IMG/VR virus record: IMGVR_UViG_3300021437_000039
Span: 1 to 42,018 of that record
Length of the DNA: 42,018 nt
From: a virus
Strand: one strand, 5' to 3'
In this document: one piece after another, positions 12,436 to 42,018 of the stretch
Position numbering within the stretch: position 1 is the first letter of the stretch
Layout of the letters: each line of letters starts with the position of its first letter
Program-made: the position numbers and the translations under genes
Notes under the pieces: model-generated
The model's input: the letters and a program-made list of their open reading frames with translations, nothing else
Told to the model about the DNA's origin: nothing
Databases searched by the model: none

Positions 12436-13353
12436 CTAAGAGCCTTGCGTAGAGAAAAAGCAACGTGGATCAGTCCATCCATACGCTTTACGCATAGTGG
12501 ATTTGTACCGGACGCTGTCTGTTTCAAAGTCACCTTCCATTGATTTTTCAATTTGACGGCGCACCATTACTGACAAGCCTTTTGGCGCGTCAGTAGTGAT
12601 ACCCCATTGAGTAGGAGAAGTGATACGGGAGATAACAGCCACTTCCTTCAAATAGCCCATCGACTTAACAGGGTTAATGTCGTTGTTTGCAACGCCTGTA
12701 CGCAGAACAGAATTCAGCAATACTTCTGCTTGCAATTCGTTACCGGGGGAAACGACTAATTTTTGTGGCATTAAGCGGATTTTCTTGCCGTTGTTATCCA
12801 CACCTTGCGTACGAATCTGAACCAGCAATTGCTCTAACGATGTTTGAGACAATGCAGCAGGCGTTGCAAGAATGTTGGAGAACGAACCGCCGATAATTGG
12901 GTGTGATGCGCTACCCAATGCAACGCCATCACCACCGGGATAAGAAGCGTTATATGCACGGTTAATAATATTCGCCCCATTAAGCTCATCCGTTTCAATC
13001 ATGGATTGCGCCAAATGTTCGGAATACTCTTTGCCGATACGAATATGATCGCCGTCTTCAGTCAGCACACGGGTAAGAGCGAACGCCAAGCCATACACTT
13101 TGTAGATGTAGCGTTTGGTGAATAAAACGCCACCAGCTTGATACGTTACTGGCGCGCCATCGTTTAACTCGGGGGCTGCACCAAAACCGTATTGAACGGG
13201 TTCCTCATGGTACGACCGAGGAATGCCATCACGGATTTTAAAAATTTGTTTGTATTCGTCTTTGCGTAAGTCATAAACGCCATCAAAGGCTTCGTTTAGA
13301 ATCGGCTCGACTATCGGACGAAAGTCCGAACTGCGCATGATATTAGCTGCCAT
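12436..13353 (-). CDS. Major capsid protein, 305 aa
   Basis: 305 residues beginning MAANIMRSSDFRPIVEPILN. The pattern RDGIPRSYHEEPVQYGFGAA, FTKRYIYKVYGLAFALTRVL, RIGKEYSEHLAQSMIETDEL and LVVSPGNELQAEVLLNS is that of Mu gpT-like, HK97-fold capsid proteins: an E-loop-like early segment, a long central helix and a P-domain strand. Strong AAGGAGC ribosome site. It follows the scaffold, unknown and decoration genes, the usual order. No N-terminal protease domain is seen, matching the presence of a separate scaffold. Confidence 0.85.
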   Translation of the reverse strand: MAANIMRSSDFRPIVEPILNEAFDGVYDLRKDEYKQIFKIRDGIPRSYHEEPVQYGFGAAPELNDGAPVTYQAGGVLFTKRYIYKVYGLAFALTRVLTEDGDHIRIGKEYSEHLAQSMIETDELNGANIINRAYNASYPGGDGVALGSASHPIIGGSFSNILATPAALSQTSLEQLLVQIRTQGVDNNGKKIRLMPQKLVVSPGNELQAEVLLNSVLRTGVANNDINPVKSMGYLKEVAVISRITSPTQWGITTDAPKGLSVMVRRQIEKSMEGDFETDSVRYKSTMRKAYGWTDPRCFFSTQGS

Positions 13354-32649: not shown

Positions 32650-34011
32650 CTAATCGAATCCTGATTTTGTTTTAGGCTGCGGAGGTGGTGGCTCCCAGCG
32701 TCCAGCGTAATCCTCAAACCTTGCTTGGTGACCATAGTACGTCATCACAACAACGCCTGTTTCCCCTTGCCGCTGCTTGGCAATATTAAACTCGCAAATG
32801 CCTTTATCTTGCGAGTTTGGATTATATACTTCGTCGCGGTAAATAAAAATTATGTTCGCCGCATCTTGTTCAATTGAGCCAGATAATGCCAAATCAGACA
32901 TTTGCGGGCGTTTATTTGTCCGATTTTCGCACTCTCGGTTTAGTTGACATAGTAAAACAACTGACATATCCAATTGTTTTGCAAGTGCAATAAGTCCGCG
33001 CGTGTACTCCCCGACCAGCTCATAAGTTTTTTTCTCTTTTGCGCCGCCAGTGATAAAACTTAATTGGTCAATAACCAAAAGGTCAAGCCCATTTTTTCTC
33101 TTAATCTGTCGAGCTTTATTTCGGATTTCCAACATGTTCAAATTTGTTTCGTCATCAATGTAAAATTTCATTTCTCGCGCTTTTTGCATTGCAAACGTTA
33201 AATTATTCCAATTTTTTTCATCTTCCGCGCAATCGTCTTTGCTTGTCGGTGACCGTAACCAATCAATCGGTATTTTCCCTATTGCGGCAATATTTCTGTC
33301 ATTTACTTGCCTAATGTCCATCTCCATGGATAAAAACCCAGCAGAAAATCCTTCGTTTGCTACGCTTCTGCAAAAATCCAGTCCTGCGGCAGACTTCCCC
33401 ATCGCAGGTCGACCAGCCAAAACCGTTAGTGTGCCTCTTTCAAAACCTCCCCCTAGCTTCTTATCCAAATCAACGTGCCCAGTGCTTATAGGCTTGATCC
33501 CGCCATCCATGCGTTTTTCCAAAACAACTACGTAATCCCCGAGTGAATCAGAAAATTTAATTGGGTCTTTCCGAGTTTTCTTTTGCCCCAATTCTTCAAT
33601 TTTTGTTGCTGCAGCATCAATTATTGAATAAATGCTTTCATGCGATGTTGTTGCAATTTCTTGCAATTCAGAGCTTGTCGCTGACAATGCTCGACGCAAT
33701 GCGCACTCCGTAACAATTTCCGCATGCGCTTTTATCTGCCTCGTGCTAAGTGTTGAATTAACAATTTCAGTAATGTACCGCATGCAGTTCGGAACTTTAT
33801 CAGCAAGAGCCGATCCAATGCTGATTGCATCCACCGTTTCCCCAGCCGTAATTTGCCGTACAATTTCGCCAAAAAATGCCCGATGTTCAGAATTATAAAA
33901 ATATTCATCCTTTAAATCAGGGATGTTGTTTATTGATTCATTATCAATCAGCAATGCACCAATTATTGATTGTTCTGCGTGGATCGATTTTGTTCTGTCA
34001 GTTGTTTGCAT
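32650..34011 (-). CDS. dnaB: DnaB-like replicative DNA helicase, 453 aa
   Basis: Hexameric 5'-3' helicase opening the fork. N-terminal domain (HAEQSIIGALLIDNESINNI, residues 11-30) is of DnaB type; Walker A is LAGRPAMGKS (198-207), then FLSMEMD (226-232), Walker B LLVIDQLSF (311-319) and the QLNRE sensor-like segment. Near-full length for the family (about 450-470). Overlaps the initiator-like gene by one base, giving a compact replication unit. Confidence 0.92.
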   Translation of the reverse strand: MQTTDRTKSIHAEQSIIGALLIDNESINNIPDLKDEYFYNSEHRAFFGEIVRQITAGETVDAISIGSALADKVPNCMRYITEIVNSTLSTRQIKAHAEIVTECALRRALSATSSELQEIATTSHESIYSIIDAAATKIEELGQKKTRKDPIKFSDSLGDYVVVLEKRMDGGIKPISTGHVDLDKKLGGGFERGTLTVLAGRPAMGKSAAGLDFCRSVANEGFSAGFLSMEMDIRQVNDRNIAAIGKIPIDWLRSPTSKDDCAEDEKNWNNLTFAMQKAREMKFYIDDETNLNMLEIRNKARQIKRKNGLDLLVIDQLSFITGGAKEKKTYELVGEYTRGLIALAKQLDMSVVLLCQLNRECENRTNKRPQMSDLALSGSIEQDAANIIFIYRDEVYNPNSQDKGICEFNIAKQRQGETGVVVMTYYGHQARFEDYAGRWEPPPPQPKTKSGFD

Positions 34012-34832
34012 TAGTTTCTATCCTCATATTTCCCCTCGCGGATTTTCACAAAGTTTTTCGACTTAGTAATCCATTCTAAATCTGCAAAAAACGGTTTGTT
34101 CCCAGAATTGCCAATTAAGAAATTACATGACAAAATGTATTCAAATAGCCCACGCCAGTACTCTAAATTCTGACGTTTTTTATCCTCATTCCATCGAGCG
34201 CGTAGCTGCGTTGCTCTTGCCGCCGTCCAATCGCGAATTCTTGGGCACATAGGCAAAACCTCATGGTAAAGGTCAATAATTTTTTGATGAGGGCAGTTTG
34301 CAAATGCCGTGTCCTCCGGAGCTTCTTCGATGAGAAGACGTGACTGCTGCGCATCGTCGCCAGAATTTCTGGCGGCAATTACTACGTTAGTAGTAATTAA
34401 ATTGGTTCTTGGTTCTTGGTTAGCTTCTGATCCGCTTTCTCCTGGGTTAGCTGTAGCAACCGAATCAGAACCTAAAATAAACCCACTGGGTTTTTCTAGG
34501 TTTCTATTTTTCTTTGGTCTCCCACCTAATTTTCCATTTTCTTTTGCTGTTTCAGCTTTAGAATGGTAAATTGCTATTTCAGCATCGCATCTTCTATGAT
34601 GATACCCGTCATTCGATTTTTCAAATTTAAAACGCAAAAGTTCTGTAACTATTTTTTTCTCTTCGTCCGCTCTTACTCCAATCTCATGGCAAAGTCTTTC
34701 TTGGTCTAAAGGTAGCGGTCTCTCAAGATCATAATAAACGTCAAGCATGTCTCTATAAATCCACCGCTCTTGTCGCGTCATATTTACTGTTCCTGAGCGA
34801 AAATCGCCGATGTGATGGGGGTAATGGTGCAT
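34011..34832 (-). CDS. DUF1376-type replication initiator-like protein, 273 aa
   Basis: Residues 2-90 match the DUF1376 (YdaU) pattern: HYPHHIGDFRSGTVNMTRQE, RWIYRDMLDVYYDLERPLPL, then a winged-helix part ending HRRCDAEIAIY and the basic KLGGRPKKNRN linker. The C-terminal part (about 205-260, WTAARATQLRARWNEDKKRQ, FEYILSCNFLIG) is a replisome organiser-like helical domain. Immediately before dnaB, it fits the lambda O role: binding the origin and recruiting the helicase loader. Assignment of the second domain is weaker. Confidence 0.78.
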   Translation of the reverse strand: MHHYPHHIGDFRSGTVNMTRQERWIYRDMLDVYYDLERPLPLDQERLCHEIGVRADEEKKIVTELLRFKFEKSNDGYHHRRCDAEIAIYHSKAETAKENGKLGGRPKKNRNLEKPSGFILGSDSVATANPGESGSEANQEPRTNLITTNVVIAARNSGDDAQQSRLLIEEAPEDTAFANCPHQKIIDLYHEVLPMCPRIRDWTAARATQLRARWNEDKKRQNLEYWRGLFEYILSCNFLIGNSGNKPFFADLEWITKSKNFVKIREGKYEDRN

Positions 34833-34839
34833 TTTATCT

Positions 34840-35022
34840 TTATCTCCCCTCGCATAATTTTAATAAAGCATGACCCAATAAATAGGCATCCTCAATAGAA
34901 ATGGAATTTTGTTGATAATCCTCCTCCTCACCTTCCAACCCAGACTGGAAAAATATTTCATTATTTCCATTGTCTGAATGAATTATCGTTAGCTGAAAAC
35001 TGTTGATTTTAATTTTGTCCAT
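34840..35022 (-). CDS. Small acidic protein, unknown, 60 aa
   Basis: 60 residues with an AAAGGG ribosome site. MDKIKINSFQLTIIHSDNGN then an acidic stretch (GLEGEEEDYQQNSISIEDAY) and a helical end. No family recognised. Confidence 0.62.
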   Translation of the reverse strand: MDKIKINSFQLTIIHSDNGNNEIFFQSGLEGEEEDYQQNSISIEDAYLLGHALLKLCEGR

Positions 35023-35024
35023 TT

Positions 35025-35222
35025 TTATTTCCCTTTAAATAAAAATTGATATTTATTTAAATCAGCAAAATTCACACATATTTCAGACACGATAATTGAT
35101 GGTGGCGTCCATTGTTGTTTTTCATGCTCTGGCGCGATTTTACGAATGCAGCGGCTGCATAAATCGCTTGGAGTGCCTATGCACTTATGTATATCTGCTC
35201 GTGGCTTTAAAACAATGTTCAT
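35025..35222 (-). CDS. Small Cys-containing protein under the structured leader, 65 aa
   Basis: 65 residues from ATG at 35222. HKCIGTPSDLCSRCIRKIAP (about 12-31) carries C14, C22 and C25 like a small zinc-binding motif, followed by EKQQWTPPS. Short proteins with a C-x2-C-x-R signature of this type recur near phage replication genes. No Shine-Dalgarno is visible outside the stem at 35226-35239, so translation may be controlled by that structure. Confidence 0.6.
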   Translation of the reverse strand: MNIVLKPRADIHKCIGTPSDLCSRCIRKIAPEHEKQQWTPPSIIVSEICVNFADLNKYQFLFKGK

Positions 35223-35225
35223 CAA

Positions 35226-35370
35226 AGCACTTTCAAGGAAAGCTGGTTAGTAGCCAGCAGGAAAAATTGTCCGCAGCGAAGACCGGACAAAAGCCCATGT
35301 CATCCTTGAAAGTGCTCTGAATAATATTTGACACTTCGCTGTGAAGCATTCAGGTTACTAAGCTGAATGT
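35226..35370 (-). ncRNA. Highly structured leader or small RNA, about 145 nt, possible riboswitch-like element
   Basis: On the minus strand, from an expected start near 35370: a 5' hairpin CATTCAG/CTGAATG (35369-35347) and then a 14-bp perfect stem AGCACTTTCAAGGA (35316-35303) / TCCTTGAAAGTGCT (35239-35226). That stem encloses hairpins TTGTCCG/CGGACAA (35290-35267) and GCTGG/CCAGC (35258-35242). Two long-range complements also exist: the 8-base CAGCGAAG (35341-35334) with the loop CTTCGCTG (35281-35274), and loop TTAGTA (35361-35356) with loop TACTAA (35252-35247). It ends three bases before the ATG at 35222. No known family recognised; strand assigned from the promoter. Confidence 0.62.
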
Positions 35371-35376
35371 GAATAA

Positions 35377-35405
35377 ATCATAGCAGAACTTCCGGCAGTG
35401 CGCAA
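35377..35405 (-). promoter_or_regulatory. Sigma70 promoter for the structured RNA
   Basis: Minus strand -35 TTGCGC (35405-35400), 17-base spacer, -10 TATGAT (35382-35377). Start is expected near 35370, exactly at the 5' hairpin of the structured element. The stretch follows the stop of the gene at 35408 and also serves 35222 downward. Confidence 0.68.
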
Positions 35406-35407
35406 CA

Positions 35408-35734
35408 TTAAAACAGCTCACTACCCGCTAAATTTTTTTGTTGCATAGGTGCAACGTGTTTTTTCTTGATTTTTTCTTTCGTCTGCTGGAAATTTTTGGC
35501 GGTAATTTTGTTCGATGTCATGCAAATGCCGTCCTCTGTATACAGCGATCCAGTGATGATGTCCGCATAGTAAATATCGCCATCTAAATCATCAATTTTA
35601 GTCATGTTACGCTGTCCGCCAATACTAAGTTCTGCAACGTATAGTGGTTCGCCGTAAAACGCCGCTCCGCAGTTATAAGCGTCGAGGCAAAAATCAAATT
35701 GCGATAGCCGCAAGTTTTCTCCAAGTGTTTTCAT
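35408..35734 (-). CDS. Protein of unknown function, 108 aa
   Basis: 108 residues. Beta-rich N-terminal two thirds (RLSQFDFCLDAYNCGAAFYG, YVAELSIGGQRNMTKIDDLD), basic C-terminus (NFQQTKEKIKKKHVAPMQQK). Start coupled to the preceding stop (ATGA). No family recognised. Confidence 0.65.
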   Translation of the reverse strand: MKTLGENLRLSQFDFCLDAYNCGAAFYGEPLYVAELSIGGQRNMTKIDDLDGDIYYADIITGSLYTEDGICMTSNKITAKNFQQTKEKIKKKHVAPMQQKNLAGSELF

Positions 35735-41911: not shown

Positions 41912-42018
41912 AAAATTTATTGATGGCTATGGCGATGGCTCTGGCGATGGCTATGGCGATGGCTCTGGCGATGGCTATGGCTATGGCGATGGCTATGGCG
42001 ATGGCTCTGGCGATGGCT
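41898..42018 (+). CDS. Gly/Asp/Tyr/Ser repeat protein, N-terminal part (cut by right edge)
   Basis: ATG at 41898 overlaps the DUF6948-like gene. MGKNKKFIDGYGDGSGDGYG continues with GDG(Y/S) units to the edge; the DNA is a near-perfect 12-base repeat of GGCTATGGCGAT / GGCTCTGGCGAT. Asp-Gly repeats might bind metal or form a flexible filament. Such repeats recur in phage proteins of unknown role. Confidence 0.65.
   Translation, partial: MGKNKKFIDGYGDGSGDGYGDGSGDGYGYGDGYGDGSGDG
41922..42018 (+). repeat. Tandem 6/12-base repeat ggctatggcgat / ggctctggcgat
   Basis: From about 41922 to the edge the DNA is built from six-base units (ggctat, ggcgat, ggctct) in mixed order. Such arrays change length by slippage. 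The true length is unknown because the window ends inside it. Confidence 0.9.

Follow-up and report, generated by a model that had tools for sequence, protein, structure and literature searches.

Genomic setting of the RNA element

The window, which means here the whole stretch of DNA analysed, was a virus record of 42,018 bases from a podovirus-like phage with genes for portal, terminase, DNA ejection protein, a DUF1376/O-like replication protein, DnaB helicase and NinG. The structured RNA predicted here occupies 35369-35222 on the minus strand, flanked by a 108-aa ORF (stop at 35408) and a 65-aa ORF (ATG at 35222). The 65-aa ORF (35025..35222), which contains Cys residues, lies directly after the RNA; we found no family or relative for it, and no homologue in the sister phage described below. 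It is followed on the same strand by a 60-aa ORF of no family with a good ribosome site, AAAGGG (34840..35022), and by two genes recognized by family assignment, the O-like replication protein with DUF1376 (34011..34832) and a DnaB-type helicase (32650..34011).

The record end sits within a short degenerate tandem repeat (41960-42018, ATGGCTATGGCGATGG...), which may mean that the contig stops at an assembly break. In the sister phage there are about 18 kb between the places matching the two ends of the window.

Promoter and strand

An extended -10 promoter was predicted on the minus strand at 35377..35405, consisting of TTGCGC (35405-35400), 17 nt and TATGAT (35382-35377), with TG one base before the -10 hexamer. 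The -35 hexamer is weak (3/6 match), and a consensus scan with a minimum of 4/6 omits this promoter. The original prediction had placed the same two hexamers here with the RNA starting on its 5' hairpin, and our analysis agrees with it, the TG giving the extended -10. The sister phage keeps the promoter: the two copies differ at four positions, none of them in the hexamers or the TG. Its retention alone is weak evidence, because the flanks are about 90% identical anyway. Judged from these motifs, transcription would begin on the 5' hairpin. We also weighed the opposite strand as the RNA strand and rejected it, as the promoter and a U-run in the sister both indicate the minus strand.

Predicted structure of the RNA

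The main body of the RNA is a long closing rod, whose perfect part has 14 bp (35226-35239 / 35303-35316) and which extends to 18 bp (35222-35239 / 35303-35320). Its 5' arm UCAGAGCACUUUCAAGGA (35303..35320) and its 3' arm UCCUUGAAAGUGCUUUGA (35222..35239), the final base of which is the A of AUG, were both identified in the sequence, in the fold and in the inverted-repeat ranking, where by length the rod came second among all pairs of the window within 200 nt. Upstream of the rod, approximately at the predicted transcription start, the sequence and the fold give the 5' hairpin H1 (CAUUCAG-CUUAGUAAC-CUGAAUG, 35347..35369), and between H1 and the rod lies a linker S (35334..35341), itself a weak hairpin. 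The rod encloses two hairpins, HA (UUGUCCG-GUCUUCGCUG-CGGACAA, 35265..35288) and HB (GCUGG-CUACUAA-CCAGC, 35242..35258).

Two further complementarities connect these elements. In the first, a 6-nt kissing contact (pseudoknot 1), the H1 loop UUAGUA (35361-35356) matches the HB loop UACUAA (35247-35252). In the second, an 8-nt pairing (pseudoknot 2), S joins the HA loop through CAGCGAAG and CUUCGCUG (35334-35341 with 35274-35281). The stem closing two hairpins, the outer 5' hairpin and both loop complementarities had been pointed out in the original prediction, and all of them were recovered at their positions. Its statement that the stem ends three bases before the ATG is right for the perfect 14 bp; the 18-bp extension pairs also the A of AUG. 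It had also seen no free ribosome site before this ATG. A weak site, GAAAG, does stand 7 nt upstream of the ATG at 35222; it had been overlooked and lies within the stem.

That such pairings are hard to get by chance was borne out by calculation. The minimum free energy of the window fold was -54.4 against a mean of -34.4 for shuffled sequences (z -5.2), and 0 of 200 shuffles were as stable. With an architecture descriptor, which describes a 5' hairpin in loop-loop contact with a hairpin enclosed by a rod, the window RNA scored 17.3, and the maximum in 10,000 dinucleotide shuffles of the stretch was 11.6. When the letters of the loops were permuted, the chance of the contact was 0.0014 for the 6-nt pairing and 0.0003 for the 8-nt pairing, both before allowing for the choice of loops. 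The H1-HB contact is made of six mostly A-U pairs worth -2.8 kcal/mol as a free duplex. While the pairings and their unlikelihood are computed, the pseudoknots are what we infer the RNA would form from them.

The rod of the window also contains a 21-codon ORF, MGFCPVFAADNFSCWLLTSFP (35300-35232, minus strand), which lies next to the 65-aa ORF, so that translational coupling is possible. An AAGGA ribosome site in the 5' arm of the rod stands 4 nt before its AUG, and its UGA is followed after 10 nt by the AUG at 35222. This layout would suit a leader-peptide device, in which translating the short ORF opens the rod and couples to the 65-aa ORF. Such a device would apply to the window only, since the sister has no comparable short ORF, and it leaves H1, the two loop contacts and the architecture shared by both phages unexplained. 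We regard it as a minor rival and improbable.

The same shape with different letters in a sister phage

A sister phage was found in an IMG/VR record of 58,672 bases (L012; whole record G001). It matched most of the window in a series of blocks about 83-98% identical, the majority above 88%. The longest stretch left unmatched extends from the stop codon of DnaB (32650) to 35373, which is a few bases past the -10 hexamer. These two points, the DnaB stop and the 5' end of the RNA, are the exchange boundaries; the promoter is common to both phages and the sequence 3' of it is unrelated. Thus the replication cassette has been swapped, and the RNA is the first element of what was exchanged.

The sister also carries a structured RNA (fold z -7.2) at the corresponding place after the promoter, and this RNA scored 19.2 with the descriptor (maximum in 10,000 shuffles 10.3). 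Its H1, AUGUUGAU-GUAACGGC-GUCGACAU, stands at the same distance from the -10 as H1 of the window, and is followed by an 8-nt linker and a 26-position rod with two mismatches. Inside this rod there are two hairpins, UGGG-GAAA-CCCA and ACUGG-CCGUUA-CCAGU. The H1 loop UAACGG is complementary to the CCGUUA loop of the second inner hairpin, which is the equivalent of the H1-HB contact of the window (loop-permutation chance 0.0035). The lowest-energy form of the sister H1 closes two extra pairs that must open for this contact. After the rod comes UUUUUUAUUUU, a terminator-like U-run (U6AU4), and 3' of it a separate ribosome site and ATG.

No alignment of the two RNAs was obtainable with MAFFT, so they are compared here in a structural alignment made by hand, with n=2 too few for a formal covariation test. 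In this alignment 27 pairs were changed on both sides and were still standard pairs: 5 in H1, 17 in the rod, 1 in HB and 4 in the kissing contact. By element, the both-side changes were 5/7 in H1, 13/18 in the rod, 4/8 in the outer rod, 1/5 in HB and 4/6 in the kissing contact. The inner four pairs of HB (CUGG/CCAG) are identical in both, and beyond them almost no sequence is common to the two RNAs (n=2). The order of the hairpins is the same. The sister uses several G-U pairs in H1 and in the rod, which makes selection on the RNA more plausible than on the DNA.

The original prediction had called for covariation of all five helices in relatives. The sister bears this out for H1, the rod, HB and the 6-nt contact. 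The 8-nt pairing is not kept: pseudoknot 2 is without counterpart in the sister, where a hairpin with a GAAA tetraloop replaces HA. With H1 at the start, the H1-HB loop contact and the rod all kept through compensatory changes in two members only, the prediction of a structured, pseudoknot-capable RNA is supported, and it is strengthened by finding the 5' hairpin, the rod and the 6-nt contact written in different letters. Unrelated sequences with the same fold and a covarying loop contact in two sister phages are a kind of natural experiment: the shape itself has seemingly been selected, and that it was kept suggests a role.

Search for further members

We gathered about 3.7 Mb of DNA from related phages and prophages through eight viral scans, a genome scan and several searches of genomes. 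When the O-like protein, the 108-aa ORF, NinG, the GIY-YIG protein of the sister, the promoter and the terminase served as queries in viral scans, the sister was the only near relative. The architecture descriptor, run over these 3.7 Mb, found no further convincing member beyond the two. Blastn against phages gave no match for the window RNA, the sister RNA or the L252 element described below, and blastn of both RNAs against 369 genomes gave just short matches at chance level. Because there are only two members in 3.7 Mb of related DNA, an RNA family is not established; we consider the two a good lead rather than an established family.

Several descriptor matches were rejected as members. The match at L212 12558 scored 14.0, within the shuffle range, the match at L274 9458 was located inside a coding frame, and those in L023, L244 and L272 were repeats. 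Near-palindromic repeat clusters of the type GTACTGAATCGGTAC / GTTACCGAATCGGTAAC occur in related phage or prophage loci (L061 about 8989, L069 about 4096, L244 about 1757), and a Burkholderiales genome has alternating palindromic repeats made of GCATCAATTGATGC and a GC-rich GCGCGCGTGAGGGGTGGGGG unit (L272 5850-6000).

One match, at 13244 in a Burkholderiales prophage (L252), scored 18.2. It is left as an unconfirmed member, because its loop match is not significant (chance 0.16) and it has no apparent promoter. The same place (L252 13244-13375, plus strand), after ninB and before an HNH-like ORF, shows a pair of long inverted repeats that interleave, CGCUCGCACCGU/ACGGUGCGAGCG and a rod of about 20 bp ending GGCUUUU. 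The two cannot both form in full, and from the sequence they look like a terminator/antiterminator switch.

This third match, with its loop match at a chance of 0.16, together with there being only two cases, is what speaks for the view that we are looking at common intergenic inverted repeats or terminators with loop matches by chance, and the shuffles understate chance because natural terminators make rods common. Against it, the loop match itself is unlikely in both phages (0.0014 and 0.0035), and the two RNAs agree in their place relative to the shared promoter, in hairpin order and in the CUGG/CCAG stem of HB. Chance is a minor rival that we think rather improbable.

Possible function

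We tentatively favour, at somewhat below even odds, a cis-acting gate: a structured RNA close to the promoter that stands first in the replication cassette and controls the genes of this cassette. For this reading speak the fold and descriptor scores of both RNAs, the pairs changed on both sides between them, the exchange boundaries, the U-run after the sister rod and the G-U pairs of the sister. The regulatory effect that we infer for the RNA would come from the rod, which would block what lies 3' of it. In the sister, the rod with the U-run would serve as an intrinsic terminator. The rod of the window extends as far as the A of AUG, with the weak ribosome site inside it. If the 5' hairpin docks into the rod, this would determine the order of folding or the stability, or would be what a phage or host protein recognizes by its shape. 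This common gating would differ in detail between the phages, because the window RNA has no terminator and the sister RNA has no start-codon occlusion. The position just before a start codon, part of the original prediction, accordingly holds for the window, where the rod runs into the codon at 35222, and not for the sister, which has a U-run after the RNA and then a different gene.

Several points weigh against a gate in cis: there are two examples only, the promoter and the RNA are predicted, pseudoknot 2 is not kept, the H1-HB contact of the window is short and mostly A-U, and the sister H1 must open two pairs. In addition, the gene after the RNA differs, being the 65-aa Cys ORF in the window and a GIY-YIG-like protein in the sister (L012 5513-6241, between the sister RNA and the O-like gene). 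The best-named relative of this protein is an annotated homing endonuclease of Vibrio phage MZH0603, and the GIY-YIG gene is probably a newcomer.

That the genes directly 3' differ fits as well with a free-standing small RNA gene of about 115-150 nt acting in trans, whose kissing-loop fold would give stability or be recognized through its shape by a protein of the host or the phage, with the genes around it incidental. This possibility comes close behind and is nearly as likely as the cis gate. Among the features of an autonomous sRNA gene, the promoter is present in both phages and the terminator-like U-run in the sister only. The sister shows such a layout, with promoter, start at H1, U-tailed terminator and then a gene with its own ribosome site, but the window has no terminator and its rod extends into the start codon. 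Moreover, we found no complementarity of at least 12 nt to any other site in either phage.

Going beyond the cis gate, the two RNAs may represent a new class of phage RNA read by shape and not by sequence, in which a 5' hairpin docked by kissing into a long rod is kept at the head of replication cassettes during exchange between phages and acts on cassette expression or replication. We hold this wider claim as less likely than not. Most structured RNAs were found via conserved sequence, and sequence searches would miss an RNA conserved in shape; this one sits at the entrance to the DNA-replication genes of the phage.

Comparison with known RNA classes

Rfam 15 gave 0 matches in the window at the gathering cut-off, which is consistent with the original prediction, where hammerhead, purine and TPP cores compared by eye did not fit. 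With E up to 10, both RNAs had matches only below gathering scores and nothing credible. Of the roles proposed there, a riboswitch-like leader in the loose sense and a regulatory RNA both stay plausible; a true riboswitch aptamer or a ribozyme is disfavoured. As a riboswitch aptamer the element lacks a ligand-binding core conserved in the sister (n=2) and a Rfam match, and as a self-cleaving ribozyme (hammerhead, twister, pistol and others) it lacks a catalytic core recognized by the Rfam models. Because both need conserved core nucleotides and the two phages share almost no nucleotides, a small-molecule riboswitch or ribozyme is unlikely.

In general outline the RNA resembles purine-type riboswitches, with a closing stem, two hairpins and loop-loop contacts. 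In those riboswitches the two inner hairpins of a three-way junction kiss each other and the junction sequence is conserved, whereas in the phage RNA the hairpin that would dock into the rod lies outside it, on the 5' side, the core lacks conservation and there is no Rfam match.

The element resembles the put antitermination RNA of phage HK022 in being a structured RNA that would open an early phage transcript. The put RNA consists of two simple adjacent hairpins and modifies the transcribing polymerase. A polymerase-modifying role here would agree with the position, the extreme 5' end of a transcript entering the replication cassette, and with the terminator-like U-run at the sister rod. However, put has no long rod or kissing loop, and the sister terminator belongs to the RNA itself. 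This is also a minor rival and the least probable of those considered.

The C4 antisense RNA (RF01695) of phages P1/P7 and Acinetobacter (PMC5320573) is likewise a small phage RNA with several stem-loops and variable loops. C4 has a conserved sequence, three stem-loops P1-P3 and antisense loops, and is processed by RNase P from a larger transcript (PMC5320573). The two phage RNAs differ from it in having no Rfam match, RF01695 being absent also among the matches at E up to 10 for both; a search for antisense targets of at least 12 nt found none in either phage.

The ornate RNAs GOLLD, ROOL and OLE are large and form homo-oligomers (PMC12286853). The RNA described here is only about 150 nt long and belongs to no Rfam family, but like them it is an elaborate RNA with kissing contacts.
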